A stretch of DNA of 22,398 bases from a virus: IMG/VR virus record IMGVR_UViG_3300009537_000198, positions 1 through 22,398 of that record. The stretch is one strand, 5' to 3'. Shown here piece by piece: positions 2,998 to 14,427 of this stretch (position 1 is the stretch's first letter; each line of letters begins with the position of its first letter). Under the pieces are notes generated by a model, which saw only the letters and a program-made list of their open reading frames with translations, did not search any database and was not told the DNA's origin. The position numbers and the translations under genes were made by a program.

Positions 2998-3127
2998 ACA
3001 AGGCTTATTTGATGTGTATGTTCAGCAGGTAAAATATATGCCGATGACTAAAGTTGAACAAGATAAAGTAATTGCAGTTCAAAAAAAGGCTTTTGGTTTG
3101 GATGAGCCAAAAGGGATGAAGAAATAA
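2972..3127 (+). CDS. 51-residue basic hypothetical protein
   Basis: The chosen ATG at 2972 gives a product beginning MKRVKRIFKQGLFDVYV and overlaps the Lar-like gene by 26 bases. A GTG at 2933 (after AAAGGG) would add 13 residues and is the main alternative. The product is basic with a helical C-terminal half ending in EPKGMKK. It stops three bases before the large terminase start. No family is recognised. Confidence 0.45.
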   Translation: MKRVKRIFKQGLFDVYVQQVKYMPMTKVEQDKVIAVQKKAFGLDEPKGMKK

Positions 3128-3130
3128 CAT

Positions 3131-5524
3131 ATGCACTTCACGGAAGAAGAAATAGAAAAATATAGACTTCAAGGTTCATTCTTAGAGTTCCTGAGGGTTT
3201 TTTATTACATTCGTAATAACCGTAAGTTTGAGTTATCAGAGCCTGTGGGGCGTGAATCTCACTATATGACAATAGCTCGTGAGCTTAAGAAAGTATTTAA
3301 ACTTGAGACATTGAGACTTGTTTTGAATGTCTTCCCAGGCTCTGGTAAATCAACCATGGCATCTTATTTTGTTGCCTGGACTTTTACGCATTATGCTGAT
3401 TGCAAATGGCTATATTTAGCGCATTCTCAGTCATTAGCAGAAAAAAATACTGCTGAAATTAAAGCTATAATGACTCTTCCTAGTTATAAAAAATTATTCA
3501 ATGTGCATATTGACCCTCACTCTAAATCAAAAAGCAATTTTGCTACGACAGCGGGTGGTCGTGTAATGGCATTTGGTAGCTCAGGTTCAATTGTAGGTCA
3601 AGATGCTGGCCTGCCGAATTTAGATAGATTCTCTGGTGGTATTATGTACGATGATGCGCATAAACCTGATGAAGTATTTTCTGATACGCGTAGACACCAT
3701 GTGATTGATAATTATAACCAGACGGTTAAAACGAGACCGCGTGGTGAATTAGTACCTATTGTTTTTCTTGGCCAAAGACTTCATGAAGATGATTTGCCCG
3801 CGTTTTTGATTAACGGAAAAGATGGTAATGATTGGAAAAAAGTAATTCTTCCGTCTTTGGATGGGGCAGGTAATGCGTTGGCGCCAAATATTTGGACCAA
3901 GCAAAGATTAATGAATGAAGCAGAATATAATCCTTATGTATTTGCATCTCAACACCAACAAAATCCTTCACCAGCTGGAGGAGGTATTTTTAAGATTGAT
4001 GACTTTGTTACGGTACATGAATCACCAAAAATAGAATGCACTTTCTTAACAATTGACACAGCAGAAACGGATAAAACTTACAATGATGCATCTGTCTTTA
4101 GCTTCTGGGGCGTACATAAGATTATGTATAATGGATCTCATCTTGATGGAATGTATGGGTTATATTGGATTGACTGTTTAGAGCTTAGAGTAGAACCAAA
4201 AGACCTTGAGAACGAGTTTATGGAGTTTTATGCAAGTGCATTGGTTCATAAGCCTCAACCCTCCTTTGTTGCCATAGAAAAGAAATCTACTGGCGTTACG
4301 CTTTCTTCTGTATTAAAAACCATACCAGGTTTAAAAATAATAGATGTAGCGCGTACTAGGGCATCAGGAAGTAAAACGACTAGATATTTAGAAGCACAAC
4401 CATTTGTGGCGAGGAAACTCATATCTCTACCTTTTGGAGCGAAACATACTAAGATGTGTATTGAGCATATGGGTAAGATTACGCATAACGACACACATAG
4501 ACATGACGATATTTGTCTGGTAGCTGGTACTAAAATTGCTACTACGAAAGGATATGTGAATATAGAAGACATGAAGGTTGGAGATAAGGTAATCACACCG
4601 TTTGGCATCGGCAATGTAAAAGCGACTGAATGTACTGGAAGTCATAAAGTCATTACTAGATTTGGTTTGACTGGTACTGGGGCGCATCCCGTCTTTGCCA
4701 ACAATAAGTTTCAACGTCTTGACACGCTCTCTGATGATGATAAGATTAATCCTTTTAGATTAAAGGAGTTAATCAGATGGAGATACAGAAAACTATTACT
4801 TTCAATGGAATCGAATATAACCTTATGGGATCGAAACGCTATTACCTTAGCCGCGCAACTACAAATTCAGGAAGAAAAAATCCTAAAGGATTGCATGTGG
4901 CGATTTGGGAATTTTATAGCGGAAAGACAGTACCTAAAGGCTATGTTGTTCATCATAAGGACGGTGATTACTTTAATAACACCTTTGAAAATCTTGAGTG
5001 CATTTCACGTGAGGAACACCTTAAACATCATGCATCTGAAAGAAAAGGTAAAAAGTGTACACCAGAAGAACTTAAGCATTTGGAAAATATTCGAGAGAAA
5101 ACTAAAGAGTGGCATTCAAGTGATGAAGGTATCTCTTGGCATCGTGAAAATGCAAAAACAAGTCTTAACAAGCCCAGACTTATCAAATGTGAAGAATGCG
5201 GACGAGAAGTTATTCGAAAGACCAAAAATGCTAAAAGATGTGGAGCGAGAGCGTGTTATAAACGGTGGGATGCGCGCTATCAAAGAGATAGAAGAGAGAA
5301 AAAACGTCTTCAATCTAACAATTGAGCAATATGGTACATACTATGCAGAAAATATTTTAAATTCTAACTGCGATACCATGTATGACGCTATTAAGTTAGC
5401 ATTGATAGATAGAACAGTTATCAATACGCACGTTGAACCAAAAGACACTATTGACTTTGCTCATCAGCTACAAATGAAATCACGTAAGATTGACTACTTA
5501 AAAAGGAAAGCTTATGGCAAATAA
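3131..5524 (+). CDS. terL: Terminase large subunit (packaging ATPase and nuclease), interrupted by an intein
   Basis: The 797-codon frame encodes a TerL precursor. The N-terminal ATPase has a Walker A at residues 67-75 (VFPGSGKST), a Walker B-like GIMYDDA at 170-176 and a coupling motif FLGQRLH at 212-218. The RNase H-like nuclease has its first catalytic Asp at 309 (TIDTAE), an acidic residue at 383 (AIEKKS) and HDD at 458-460. Directly after HDDI an intein (residues 462-746) interrupts the protein. Excision would restore HDDI-CDTMYDAIKLA and a 512-residue enzyme, a normal length. TerL pumps DNA into the prohead through the portal and cuts it. The frame remains open across an HNH gene encoded in another frame within the intein. 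The SD is weak. The 3' end overlaps the next small gene by 11 bases. Confidence 0.93.
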   Translation: MHFTEEEIEKYRLQGSFLEFLRVFYYIRNNRKFELSEPVGRESHYMTIARELKKVFKLETLRLVLNVFPGSGKSTMASYFVAWTFTHYADCKWLYLAHSQSLAEKNTAEIKAIMTLPSYKKLFNVHIDPHSKSKSNFATTAGGRVMAFGSSGSIVGQDAGLPNLDRFSGGIMYDDAHKPDEVFSDTRRHHVIDNYNQTVKTRPRGELVPIVFLGQRLHEDDLPAFLINGKDGNDWKKVILPSLDGAGNALAPNIWTKQRLMNEAEYNPYVFASQHQQNPSPAGGGIFKIDDFVTVHESPKIECTFLTIDTAETDKTYNDASVFSFWGVHKIMYNGSHLDGMYGLYWIDCLELRVEPKDLENEFMEFYASALVHKPQPSFVAIEKKSTGVTLSSVLKTIPGLKIIDVARTRASGSKTTRYLEAQPFVARKLISLPFGAKHTKMCIEHMGKITHNDTHRHDDICLVAGTKIATTKGYVNIEDMKVGDKVITPFGIGNVKATECTGSHKVITRFGLTGTGAHPVFANNKFQRLDTLSDDDKINPFRLKELIRWRYRKLLLSMESNITLWDRNAITLAAQLQIQEEKILKDCMWRFGNFIAERQYLKAMLFIIRTVITLITPLKILSAFHVRNTLNIMHLKEKVKSVHQKNLSIWKIFERKLKSGIQVMKVSLGIVKMQKQVLTSPDLSNVKNADEKLFERPKMLKDVERERVINGGMRAIKEIEERKNVFNLTIEQYGTYYAENILNSNCDTMYDAIKLALIDRTVINTHVEPKDTIDFAHQLQMKSRKIDYLKRKAYGK
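4744..4774 (+). promoter_or_regulatory. Hairpin sequestering the SD of the nested HNH endonuclease gene
   Basis: GATTAATCCTTT at 4744-4755 pairs with AAAGGA (4762-4767) plus TTAATC (4769-4774), a 12-bp stem with one bulged G at 4768 and a 6-base loop. The 3' arm contains the whole AAAGGAG SD of the HNH gene (ATG at 4777). In the folded mRNA the ribosome site would be hidden. In T4, hairpins of this type block translation of homing endonuclease genes and of gene 49 from long transcripts. Ribosomes translating TerL would transiently open this hairpin, which could couple HNH synthesis to terminase synthesis (inference). Confidence 0.7.
4777..5325 (+). CDS. HNH homing endonuclease encoded in an alternative frame inside the intein
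   Basis: A 182-residue protein in the -1 frame relative to TerL. The HNH core is at about residues 56-85: VVHHKDGD, then NNTFENLE, then a C-terminal HLKHH, matching the HNH_3 type of phage homing endonucleases. The basic C-terminal part carries a four-cysteine zinc pattern (C138, C141, C155, C160). It has its own SD (AAAGGAG, 4762-4768, 8 bases before the ATG), an in-frame TAG just upstream (4756-4758) and its own TGA at 5323-5325. It is therefore a separate gene, not a fused intein domain. Its last six codons overlap the intein block F codons for VFNLTI. Its expected role is to cut intein-less terL alleles so that repair copies the intein. The SD sits in a hairpin. Confidence 0.88.
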   Translation: MEIQKTITFNGIEYNLMGSKRYYLSRATTNSGRKNPKGLHVAIWEFYSGKTVPKGYVVHHKDGDYFNNTFENLECISREEHLKHHASERKGKKCTPEELKHLENIREKTKEWHSSDEGISWHRENAKTSLNKPRLIKCEECGREVIRKTKNAKRCGARACYKRWDARYQRDRREKKRLQSNN

Positions 5525-5672
5525 AAATTATGATTTTAAATTAAGAGATACTATAGAAGATAAAATTGATAAAATTCAAAGCCAAATCGATCTTTTGTTT
5601 GAAAAAGTAGCATCTTTGAGAGAAAGTGTCATAAAATTAGAAATAAATAGCAAAAAAGATACAAATTCTTGA
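5514..5672 (+). CDS. 52-residue coiled-coil protein
   Basis: ATG at 5514 follows AAAGGA (5502-5507) by 6 bases and overlaps the end of terL by 11 bases. The product begins MANKNYDFKLRDTIEDKIDK and shows a heptad-like pattern through residues 12-46 (IEDKIDKIQSQIDLLFEKV), predicting a short coiled coil. It lies between terminase and portal and is probably co-expressed with packaging genes. The function is unknown. Confidence 0.6.
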   Translation: MANKNYDFKLRDTIEDKIDKIQSQIDLLFEKVASLRESVIKLEINSKKDTNS

Positions 5673-5727
5673 TAAAATAAAACAAAATTTTATAACAGTC
5701 TAATTTATTCAACACAAGGATGTGTTC

Positions 5728-7806
5728 ATGGCTGACCTACCTGGTAAAAAGAGTCAAGATAAACTTGAATCAATTAAAAAAAATATAAAAACTTCCTATG
5801 ATTATTTCAAACCAAATTATGATCGGTTTAATGATTTTAGGCAATTTGTTTTCCAGAGCTCTTTATCCTCAGATGATGTAACAATGCTGCAAGCATTAGG
5901 ATTTCCTCAATTAGAATTTAATATTTTAGAAGCATATATTTCACGTTTATTAGGTGAATTTAGTAAGCAAGAACCAGCGATACAGGTGAGTGCACAAGAA
6001 CACGATTCGTTAAGTGCGCCAACCATTGAAATGGTTCAAGACCACATGCGTTTTGCGTTAAATGATGATAATAATGAGCATACGCGATATGAAGTTTATA
6101 AGGATTTATTATCAGGTGGATTTTCTACATTTAAAGTTTTTACAGATTATGAATCGCCCATGTCACTTAAACAGAATATTTATATTGAGCGCGTATTTGA
6201 TCCCACGCTATGTGGCTTTGATCCAAAATGTAGAATGTCGCATAAAGGAGATGGTCAGTATTGTTTTGAATTATTCCCCATGACTAAAGAAGAATTTGAA
6301 CGGGAATATCCAAAAATACCCACTGATAGAATAACCTTCAGAAAAGATTTTAGTGGCTTTAGATGGTCATACATGAATAACAACAAAGAAACATTGATTG
6401 TTGCCGATTATTATGTAAAGAAACCAAAAAAAGAAAAAATTGTTCAAACAATAGATGGTCGCGTCATGCCAAGAGCAGAATATGACGATATGGTTTCTAA
6501 CTGGCCTCATTTAAATAGTGTCCCTCCGGCAATTATTGGTGAAAGAACCACAACGATTGATCATATTGTGCGCTATAGATTAATAGAAAATTTAGTTATT
6601 GAGTATGAATCAACTGATTTCACGATGCTTCCATTGGTATTTGTAGATGGCGATTCGGTTTTAATACGTGGAGAAAACAATGGGGATGTGAGACAAATGA
6701 CGCGTCCTTATGTTTACCATGCACGAGATGCTCAGAGATTAAAAAATAGAGCGGGTATTGGATTAGCCAATGCAATCGAGAATGAAGTTCAACATAAATT
6801 TGCGGTTGCTGAAGAGGCATTGCCGCAACAACAAGAATATTTAGATGCATGGTTAGACCCCACGAAACAATCTGTTTTGGTACATAAGGCGTTCCTTGAT
6901 AACAATCCGGATCAAGCCATTCCAAATCCGTATTCTCCTATTCCAAAAATTCCTTGTCCTCCTGAAATTGCACAGACCTTCCAAGGGACTGACTCATTAA
7001 TTCAACAAATATTAGGATCATATGATGCCTCATTGGGAATTAACAATAACCAACTCTCTGGAGTTGCAGTTGTCGAATCAGCTACACAATCAAATTCAGC
7101 AGCTATGCCGTATGTGGTCGGCTTTATGCATGGACTTCAAAGAGCCGCTCAAATATATATAGAATTAATTCCTAAATATTGGGTAACACCTAGAACTATA
7201 CCAATGACTGACGATAAGGGAAAAAGATATTATTTGCCGATTAATCAAAATAATGATCCTACATTTAAATACAAAAGTAATGCCTTACAAGTTTCTATTA
7301 AAGCGGGCGCAAGTTTCCAAGTTCAGAAATCACGTACACTTCAAATGGTTAAAGAAATGATGGGAATGTCTCAATTATTTGCACAGTTTATTAATGAAAA
7401 AGGTCTTAATTTTGTGCTGGAAAATATGGAAGGAAAAGGGATTGCACAACTTAAAGATATGGTTGATGAATGGTTAAAAGAAGTTCAGCAGCAAAAACAA
7501 ATGGCGCTTCAACAACAGCAACAAGAAATGCAGCAGAATCCAGCAGTTCTTAAAAATCAAATAGAAATGCAGAAATTGCAGTTAGAAAAAGAAAAGATGC
7601 AATTAGACCATCAAATTGACATGTTAAAATTAGAAGTTGAACATAATAAAATTGATTCTGATATATATATGAGAAACCAAAGAGATAAAATGGATATAAC
7701 GCGATCTGCGTTAGATCATCATGAAAAATTAACTAGAAATATGAGAAAAACTGCGGGGGCGACAGCCCATGCTGAAATAAAAGAAGAAAGACAAGAAGGA
7801 TTATAG
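5728..7806 (+). CDS. Portal protein, P22 gp1-like
   Basis: A 692-residue protein, close to the 725 residues of the P22 portal. The N-terminal part has the family pattern with a PQLEFNILEAYISRLLGEFSKQEP stretch (here about residues 60-83), followed by the YxxYKDLLSGG and FDPxxxGFDPKC regions. The C-terminal 100 residues form a Gln-rich coiled coil (about 585-645), as expected for the helical barrel inside the capsid. Portals form dodecameric rings at one capsid vertex, where TerL docks and the tail attaches. The start is ATG 5728, 7 bases after AAGGA (5716-5720); a GTG two codons upstream is also open. Position after terL and before scaffold and coat matches P22 gene order. Confidence 0.9.
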   Translation: MADLPGKKSQDKLESIKKNIKTSYDYFKPNYDRFNDFRQFVFQSSLSSDDVTMLQALGFPQLEFNILEAYISRLLGEFSKQEPAIQVSAQEHDSLSAPTIEMVQDHMRFALNDDNNEHTRYEVYKDLLSGGFSTFKVFTDYESPMSLKQNIYIERVFDPTLCGFDPKCRMSHKGDGQYCFELFPMTKEEFEREYPKIPTDRITFRKDFSGFRWSYMNNNKETLIVADYYVKKPKKEKIVQTIDGRVMPRAEYDDMVSNWPHLNSVPPAIIGERTTTIDHIVRYRLIENLVIEYESTDFTMLPLVFVDGDSVLIRGENNGDVRQMTRPYVYHARDAQRLKNRAGIGLANAIENEVQHKFAVAEEALPQQQEYLDAWLDPTKQSVLVHKAFLDNNPDQAIPNPYSPIPKIPCPPEIAQTFQGTDSLIQQILGSYDASLGINNNQLSGVAVVESATQSNSAAMPYVVGFMHGLQRAAQIYIELIPKYWVTPRTIPMTDDKGKRYYLPINQNNDPTFKYKSNALQVSIKAGASFQVQKSRTLQMVKEMMGMSQLFAQFINEKGLNFVLENMEGKGIAQLKDMVDEWLKEVQQQKQMALQQQQQEMQQNPAVLKNQIEMQKLQLEKEKMQLDHQIDMLKLEVEHNKIDSDIYMRNQRDKMDITRSALDHHEKLTRNMRKTAGATAHAEIKEERQEGL

Positions 7807-12977: not shown

Positions 12978-13688
12978 ATGACGATGTTAGCTCAAACCCT
13001 GATAACACGATCCTGGTATTTATCAGGCATAGTGGCCAGAAATTTGCAAACCGTCACTGGTGATCAGATGGATGATGGTCTAATAATGTTGAATGCATTG
13101 TTAGATTTCAAGCAAGTCGAATTAGAATTAGTTCCTTATTTTGAATATAATGAAACACTCACAACCGTTCCTGGTCAAGAAAAGTATTTTATTCAAAATT
13201 GCGCACAAATTGAAAGCTGTACGTTTAATCTTCAAGAAGTGCGATATCCCATGGAATACACGTCTCAAAGGAATTACTTTGGATCTGCACGTGTAGATAA
13301 TATCAGCTCATTGCCTTTTAGTTGGACATTTAACAGGAAGTTAGGTGGTGGTGATTTATACATGTATTTCCTTCCACAAGGTGAGTTTCCAATCAAAATC
13401 TTTGGTAAGTTCTTTTTGACAGATGTCAATTTAGATACTGAGATGGAAACGGTTTATGACCGATCCTATTTAGAATATTTACGTTATGCATTAGCACAAT
13501 ACATGTGTTCAGAATATGGCGTAGATTTTAATCCTCAATCTGAACGCATCCTAAATTCTTACAAACACAAATTGATGTATGTAACTGGCGTTGACTTGAG
13601 TAATAAAAAGACAACTACGCTTGCTAGAGGGGGTCAAGGATTTAGTTGGGGCGATGTCAATATTGGCAGGGGGTGGCGCCCTTCATAA
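12978..13688 (+). CDS. Tail adaptor / head completion protein, P22 gp4-like
   Basis: A 236-residue protein. The N-terminal half (ITRSWYLSGIVARN, then GDQMDDGLIMLNALLD) matches the gp4-type tail accessory proteins. These bind under the portal after DNA packaging to seal the head and seat the tail hub. P22 gp4 has 166 residues, so this is a longer member with a C-terminal extension ending GQGFSWGDVNIGRGWRPS. The SD AGGGAGG (12964-12970) is 7 bases upstream of the ATG. A 10-base palindrome, AGGGCGCCCT (12968-12977), overlaps the SD and abuts the ATG. The gp10-like gene follows after an inserted endonuclease. Confidence 0.8.
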   Translation: MTMLAQTLITRSWYLSGIVARNLQTVTGDQMDDGLIMLNALLDFKQVELELVPYFEYNETLTTVPGQEKYFIQNCAQIESCTFNLQEVRYPMEYTSQRNYFGSARVDNISSLPFSWTFNRKLGGGDLYMYFLPQGEFPIKIFGKFFLTDVNLDTEMETVYDRSYLEYLRYALAQYMCSEYGVDFNPQSERILNSYKHKLMYVTGVDLSNKKTTTLARGGQGFSWGDVNIGRGWRPS

Positions 13689-13756
13689 GGACGAGGATGG
13701 CGACCAGTATAAGTATAGTGTTATTTTTAAAATAGGTTGCGGTTTAAATTGGTTTG

Positions 13757-13795
13757 TATTAATATTCCTTTCCCATAAAGTAAGGAATATTAATA
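13757..13795 (+). promoter_or_regulatory. Hairpin sequestering the SD and start of the endonuclease VII-like gene
   Basis: TATTAATATTCCTT (13757-13770) pairs without mismatch with AAGGAATATTAATA (13782-13795) around an 11-base loop. The stem can continue into the ATG through G-U pairs and two further A-T pairs. The SD AAGGAA is fully inside the 3' arm. This is the arrangement known for T4 gene 49 (endonuclease VII) and for I-TevI, where long transcripts cannot be translated from the site and only transcripts starting within the loop are active. Whether a promoter lies in this loop is not evident. Confidence 0.75.
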
Positions 13796-14427
13796 TGAAA
13801 GAAATAGTTAAAGTTTGTAAAAAACATGGAGATTTAAATATATCGCAGGTCTACGAAGAAAGGCCAAAGAATAAACCAACATTTAGATTTCGATGTAAGG
13901 CTTGTAGAAAAGACTATAGTGATGCAAATAGAGAAAAATTAAGAGAAAAAAGTAGAGAATACGAAAAAACAAAAAGGAAAAGACCAAAATATCATTATGA
14001 AAATTATATGAAACCATATCAACAAGAATGGCGAGAAATTCATAAAGATGAAATTAACGAAAAAATAAGAAAGGATAGGGAACAAAATCCAGAAAAATAT
14101 AGAGAATGGGAAAGAAATAAGAGAGCCACTAATTTACAAAAATATAGAGAATTAGATGTTATTAAAGGAAAAGACATCACATATGAAAAATATAAATGGA
14201 TGTTGGATAAACAAGATAGTAAATGTGCAGCATGTGGTGATTATGAAACTAAAAAATCTCGCACGCAAGGTCAAATTTGCAGATTAGCAATTGATCATAA
14301 CCATGAAACAGGCGAAGTAAGAGAATTGTTATGTCACAATTGTAATATAGTAGTTGGTCATCTAAAAGAATCACTTACTAGATTAGAAAACATAAAACAA
14401 TATATGATAAAACATAATTGTAAATAA
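13795..14427 (+). CDS. Endonuclease VII-like HNH endonuclease (probable free-standing homing enzyme)
   Basis: A 210-residue protein. An N-terminal zinc region (C8, C34, C37) is followed by a long, very basic helical linker (residues 43-125). The C-terminal recombination-endonuclease-VII-type HNH module contains CAAC at 144-147, an AIDHNH stretch ending at 170, then RELLCHNCN at 176-184. ATG 13795 is chosen because AAGGAA (13782-13787) precedes it by 7 bases; the frame is open farther upstream into the gp4 gene but without a good start. The DNA is more A-rich than its neighbours and interrupts the conserved gp4-gp10 pair. This suggests a mobile homing endonuclease rather than the phage's own Holliday-junction resolvase, though the latter remains possible. 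Confidence 0.85.
   Translation: MKEIVKVCKKHGDLNISQVYEERPKNKPTFRFRCKACRKDYSDANREKLREKSREYEKTKRKRPKYHYENYMKPYQQEWREIHKDEINEKIRKDREQNPEKYREWERNKRATNLQKYRELDVIKGKDITYEKYKWMLDKQDSKCAACGDYETKKSRTQGQICRLAIDHNHETGEVRELLCHNCNIVVGHLKESLTRLENIKQYMIKHNCK

Follow-up and report, generated by a model that had tools for sequence, protein, structure and literature searches.

A phage terminase intein with a putative homing endonuclease gene overprinted in a second reading frame

Mobile inteins are usually seen as bifunctional proteins, with an endonuclease domain that is excised along with the splicing domain. A different arrangement, in which split inteins in "fractured" genes occur with free-standing endonuclease genes, was reportedly described by Dassa and colleagues in 2009. 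The endonuclease domains of inteins are said to occupy one conserved place (PMC6801210), and self-excision has been shown for the in-frame HNH_3 intein in the dCTP deaminase of cyanophage CL131 (PMC6293099). Terminase inteins are common in mycobacteriophages (PMC5050341) and present in Microcystis phage Mic1 (PMC7156551); the accessible text of these two papers describes no overprinted HNH gene in them. Introns with neighbouring endonuclease genes are known from collaborative homing (PMC10448857). The closest precedent for the locus described here is the ShiLan element, an out-of-frame HNH gene in actinophage DNA methylases that lacks intein motifs, is thought to stay in the protein, has no detected ribosome binding site and appears to home (PMC11855218, 2025). 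That paper cites, for overlapping frames, a preprint (bioRxiv 2025.01.02.630785) concerned with actinophage inteins of "Non-Canonical Architecture", which may anticipate part of the layout.

Here we characterize an intein in the large terminase subunit (TerL) encoded by a 22,398-base IMG/VR virus record, the whole of which is termed the window, and report the dispersal of its layout among phage genomes and metagenomic samples. The explanation that we consider very probable is a mobile terL intein that carries its homing endonuclease not as a domain but as an independent gene, overprinted across its middle in another frame. The first-pass annotation of this DNA, which proposed the layout, knew of no earlier description; that statement now carries the caveat of the ShiLan element, which has no intein, and of the preprint.

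The terL intein and its nested HNH gene

Genes for a TerS-like protein (924-1316), TerL (3131-5524) and a portal protein (5722-7806) follow one another in the window. The TerL ORF, of 797 residues, is single and unbroken, host gene and intein not being split. Its parts, all on the + strand, comprise an N-extein with the ATPase and most of the nuclease domain (3131-4513; PHROG terminase large subunit, E=1.6e-65), an intein of 285 residues (4514-5368), and a C-extein (CDTMYDAIKLALID...) that aligns with an uninterrupted TerL and forms the end of the nuclease domain (5369-5524). The intein runs from Cys1 (codon 4514-4516) through TGTGAH to VFNLTIEQYGTYYAENILNSN, ending in Asn (codon 5366-5368) with Cys+1 next. 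Within it, also on the + strand and in the -1 frame relative to TerL, lies an HNH endonuclease gene of 182 residues, ATG to TGA (4777-5325), preceded in its own frame by a TAG (4756-4758) and by a Shine-Dalgarno (SD)-like AAGGAG (4763-4768) 8 nt before the ATG. The corresponding intein-frame linker (4778-5305) is the stop-free shadow translation of this gene and leads into splicing blocks F and G (5306-5368), where the TGA that ends the HNH gene (5323-5325) is read out of Ile-Glu codons (ATT GAG), an arrangement shared by relatives. Rechecking of ORFs and sequence bore out every coordinate and structural claim of the first-pass annotation for TerL, intein and HNH gene, including the latter's own SD, start, stop and upstream TAG.

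The required intein residues C1, T55..H58, N285 and C+1 are all present in the window, and C1, T55, H58 (block B TxxH included) and N285 are invariant across 44 aligned inteins; the linker instead follows the HNH. Matches to Pfam Hint/Hint_2 and Intein_splicing are weak, while profile matches to solved inteins reach 3e-12 (gp41-1-like). AlphaFold2 predicts a Hint fold with both halves at pLDDT 92-98, and the best Foldseek and profile matches are inteins or intein-like domains, solved inteins being among those from Foldseek. The residue preceding the terminal Asn is Ser rather than the usual His, in the window and in many relatives, and this counts against the explanation we favor. Removal of the intein joins HDDI to CDTMYDAIKLALID, a junction that aligns with the uninterrupted DDI-GDVLSDAIKIALID in the 55%-identical TerL of locus L121 (DDI-GDVLSDAIK in L121, DDI|CDTMYDAIK in the window), so that excision would restore a continuous host protein. 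TerL is likewise uninterrupted in L122 and L123, and no HNH match was found in the stretch examined around each of these three empty sites. Their +1 residue is Gly or Val, against Cys in the window, the pattern expected if Cys+1 arrives together with the intein. By sequence, predicted fold and junction the window element is an intein, with splicing a prediction.

The nested gene matches Pfam HNH_3 (E=2e-14) and the PHROG HNH endonuclease family (E=4.5e-23), is modelled by AlphaFold2 at pLDDT 93, and shares with its relatives a conserved motif, HHxDx(4)NN...NL...H, that keeps the catalytic His and Asn. I-HmuI is a weak sequence match (E=0.009) and the top Foldseek match, albeit at E=0.066. The predicted nuclease would be expected to be synthesized and to cleave site-specifically. 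As a separate observation, the window holds a second nuclease gene at 13621-14427 (+; 268 residues; Pfam Endonuclease_7, E=9.6e-18), possibly another free-standing homing-type nuclease, which overlaps the 3' end of the gene at 12978-13688 in another frame if its TTG start is right.

A family of nested elements in one register

A scan with the HNH protein retrieved 31 loci, in all but one of which HNH frame+1 was open through the whole match; an HNH profile scan retrieved at least 556 relatives, the best 80 of which were used. Three profiles, two for the N and C parts of the intein and one for the HNH, were then run against all loci. This revealed 102 nested hits, every one stop-free and with the two frames in the same relation, along with six having one intein half only (mostly at contig ends) and 12 without an intein; deduplication of the nested hits left 75 distinct elements. 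A second scan, seeded from the intein N part (profile A7, a close set) and so unselected on HNH, contributed 13 more elements, again all in this register, plus an HNH-less mini-intein (L138). The layout, initially treated as a single case, is instead widespread: at least 88 distinct elements, grouping at 80% HNH identity into 82 clusters and with a median HNH identity of 38%, have a continuous intein frame that is HNH frame+1 (88 of the 88 found). Because so many distinct elements share it, we regard the layout as a recurrent design for a mobile intein, not a chance occurrence. Relatives with the HNH in frame with the intein, named by the first-pass annotation as one case that would speak against its reading, did not occur among the relatives found.

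The 88 elements come mostly from metagenomes and also from sequenced phages, namely Tetrasphaera phage TJE1, Rhodobacteraceae phage LS06-2018-MD07 and Acinetobacter phage vB_AbaM_Highwayman, and the layout is also carried by a faecal clone, MT838676 (unverified). Over this region the records of the three named phages annotate a terminase alone, so that annotation misses the nuclease. A scan of bacterial genome contigs gave only three HNH relatives, none matching the intein profiles. Most elements occupy the site in the TerL nuclease domain; those of L141 and L143 follow ..TDDI and ..VDDL, a Walker-B-like motif, and one TerL ORF (L098:109-939 and 1801-2709) carries two inteins at different sites, each with an overprinted HNH in the same register.

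Openness of the intein frame across the HNH gene is far beyond chance. In the window, 0 stops were seen. With the HNH protein held fixed and its codons sampled at the frequencies of the window, 8.2 would be expected, and not one of 20,000 samples was free of stops; the third frame of the gene contains 26. Shuffling the gene's own codons gave P=0.028, a value that by itself is modest and counts against the favored explanation; the test is conservative because those codons are already depleted of stop-makers. Across the 75 distinct elements, 0 stops were found against 369 expected under a null using each element's own extein codon usage, related sequences being not fully independent; 333 are still expected for 69 representatives at 80% identity. 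This comparative result is the decisive evidence, and while the original figure of one stop per 14 codons was rough, the conclusion drawn from it stands. In GC-rich members taken alone, openness carries little weight, because the GC-rich free-standing HNH genes L039 and L040 are also open in frame+1 through composition. The 15 intein-frame stops of L027 are likewise a weak control because its HNH is probably frameshifted; L043, with seven stops within the match, is a better one. Frame+1 of the HNH needs about five synonymous fixes to become stop-free, against typically ~20-28 stops in frame+2, and so appears to be the out-of-frame register most easily opened.

The borders of the HNH gene are accommodated within the intein's own codons. 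Its start corresponds to intein residue 73-95 in most elements (mode 88-89), and in 58 of 75 it reads ATGG, the TGG encoding a near-invariant Trp of the intein. Most HNH stops lie within splicing block F, where, reading the codons by inspection, TAA at -55 is drawn from Tyr-Asn (TAT-AAY) and TGA at -43, as in the window, from Val/Ile-Glu (..T-GAR). Since both frames lie on one mRNA, most of the HNH might come from TerL-translating ribosomes that undergo programmed frameshifting, as an intein-N/HNH fusion and not a free protein. Five elements whose HNH frame is open for more than 57 nt upstream would suit this, as would the lack of a clear SD in about half, a recognizable SD in only half of elements also counting against the explanation we prefer. 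We nevertheless consider frameshifting improbable: 68 of 73 elements have a stop in the HNH frame no more than 57 nt upstream (median 24), the start codon is conserved (64 ATG, 10 GTG and 1 TTG in 75), and SD-like motifs precede 34 of 69 HNH starts, compared with 14.7% of control ATG/GTG codons elsewhere in these ORFs (P ~1e-11). These features lend support to independent translation of the HNH gene, as first suggested for the window.

Signs of mobility and loss, and free-standing relatives

Several pairs of elements are nearly identical within diverged TerLs. Third-position differences for extein and HNH, respectively, are 0.45 and 0.06 (L019-L057), 0.19 and 0.01 (L085-L088), and 0.17 and 0.05 (L068-L070), and HNH identity follows that of the intein N part more closely (rho 0.50) than that of TerL (0.30). 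Such pairs are consistent with homing. Between L019:3651-4607 and L057:1934-2890, the third-position difference is 0.06 in the HNH and 0.14 in the intein N domain, hinting that the HNH may also be exchanged between inteins.

Altered and absent nucleases occur as well. The HNH of L022 (3189-3719) has a stop at codon 23 (Y23 to TAG) and FDN in place of FNN, within an intein frame that is open, and looks like a decayed endonuclease. Comparison of inteins with and without the HNH at one site, as the first-pass annotation had suggested, is afforded by L138:4001-4390, a mini-intein of 130 residues at the same TerL site. Free-standing HNH relatives lie directly behind intein-less terL in L027, L082, L106, SN1, FBPa53 and PAE1, and upstream of terS in Acinetobacter phage BP10, whose copy groups with the nested copy of Highwayman (SH-aLRT 96). 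The HNH at L027:4983-5654 has a second half that is apparently frameshifted and is possibly a degrading free-standing copy. In an HNH tree built by a quick method, with weak deep forks, nested and free-standing copies are interspersed, with seven changes between the states, at least three of them forced. The pattern accords with a terL-associated nuclease found in two settings, next to terL and within its intein.

A terminase-linked packaging role has been proposed for HK97-type HNH proteins (PMC10448857), and the occurrence of nested and many free-standing copies in or beside terL raises the prospect that this HNH, too, is a packaging nuclease partnering terminase, its place in the intein being incidental. 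We rate this no higher than frameshifting, given that the intein-less L121-L123 show no HNH match in the stretch examined, that the L022 copy has acquired a stop codon and a changed motif residue, and that the HNH travels with the intein between diverged TerLs.

Constraint on the linker and relation to known systems

The ratio of observed to expected codon identity at identical amino acids is 1.16 for the overlap; the corresponding values are 1.155 for the intein N domain and 0.97 for the extein. Because the first two values are nearly equal, the overlap shows no general constraint beyond the intein's own. In pairwise comparisons the linker showed lower identity than the HNH every time except once, when the two were equal. 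AlphaFold2 renders the linker partly helical, with long helices at pLDDT mostly 79-90 over residues 91-190 and values below 50 over residues 218-254, a confidence that may be inflated because the linker alignment is the shadow of the HNH. Apart from the absence of stops, the linker peptide thus seems to be under no clear selection, and its description as a tolerated linker gains support from these ratios and from mini-intein L138. The predicted helices, together with somewhat raised conservation of the first 50 HNH codons (ratios 1.22-1.35), could be taken to mean that the linker is itself a functional domain aiding splicing, both frames then specifying functional proteins. This seems to us marginally less credible even than the two preceding alternatives, against the single-coding level of codon conservation, the lower identity of the linker, its absence from L138, and a predicted structure that may mirror the HNH.

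A lone metagenomic contig could mislead, but assembly error or compensating indels, raised at the outset as a danger, cannot account for a layout found again and again in 88 distinct elements, including those of three named phage genomes, and an RNA intron in terL is rejected for want of any Rfam match at E<=1 (window 3000-6500), group I/II ribozymes included, and of room for a ribozyme, the frame being open throughout and the HNH spanning from the end of the N splicing half to block F; to this group of readings we assign almost no credence.

The mobile terL intein with a separate, overprinted homing endonuclease gene therefore remains our preferred explanation; it builds on features legible in the sequences, namely the architecture, its conservation, the avoidance of stops, the signal of transfer, and the apparently decayed and HNH-less states. 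Ribosomes would read TerL straight through the intein, and a Hint fold assembled from ~88 N-terminal and ~42 C-terminal residues would cut itself out together with the ~155-residue shadow linker, restoring the TerL nuclease motif. From the same mRNA, internal initiation at ATG 4777 would yield a free HNH nuclease that, during mixed infections, could cut intein-less terL alleles, repair then copying intein and HNH into the cut site. With somewhat less assurance, we think it fairly likely that these elements constitute a large class of phage inteins, mainly at the nuclease site and also at the Walker-B-like site, in which the endonuclease is always overprinted in one fixed register, codons of a splicing block double as the HNH stop and a Trp codon forms part of its start; splicing would be decoupled from nuclease expression, and the nuclease could decay or depart while the intein stays open.

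Across deep divergence, a single stretch of DNA would then keep the splicing element of an essential gene readable in one frame while a second frame encodes a selfish nuclease. It offers a natural system for dual-frame coding in which hardly anything but stop avoidance seems to constrain the linker frame. Entry and exit of endonucleases from inteins become testable because free-standing, nested, broken and HNH-less states all exist. The intein architecture would be an undescribed one, provided that the preprint does not already cover it.

Comparison with known systems places the locus among several partial likenesses. As in canonical endonuclease-containing inteins, the endonuclease sits between splicing blocks B and F; in those inteins, that of CL131 included, whose HNH matches the profile of ours, it shares the intein's frame and leaves with the intein on excision, whereas here a different frame encodes it as a gene of its own. 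Mic1 has a terL intein at the same nuclease-domain site, but a small one without an HNH. With split inteins the element shares a separately encoded endonuclease serving an intein, although there the host gene and intein are divided among separate ORFs, and here the intein frame continues through the nuclease gene. Collaborative homing likewise involves a separate endonuclease thought to spread a self-splicing element, and free HNH relatives of the present gene adjoin terL; the difference is that the endonuclease gene lies within the splicing element, overprinted. The ShiLan element comes nearest, having an HNH overprinted on an insertion that is kept open in the frame of the host gene; what distinguishes the present elements is that a complete Hint domain surrounds the HNH, that the host protein is a terminase, and that SD-like sites are found in half of them.
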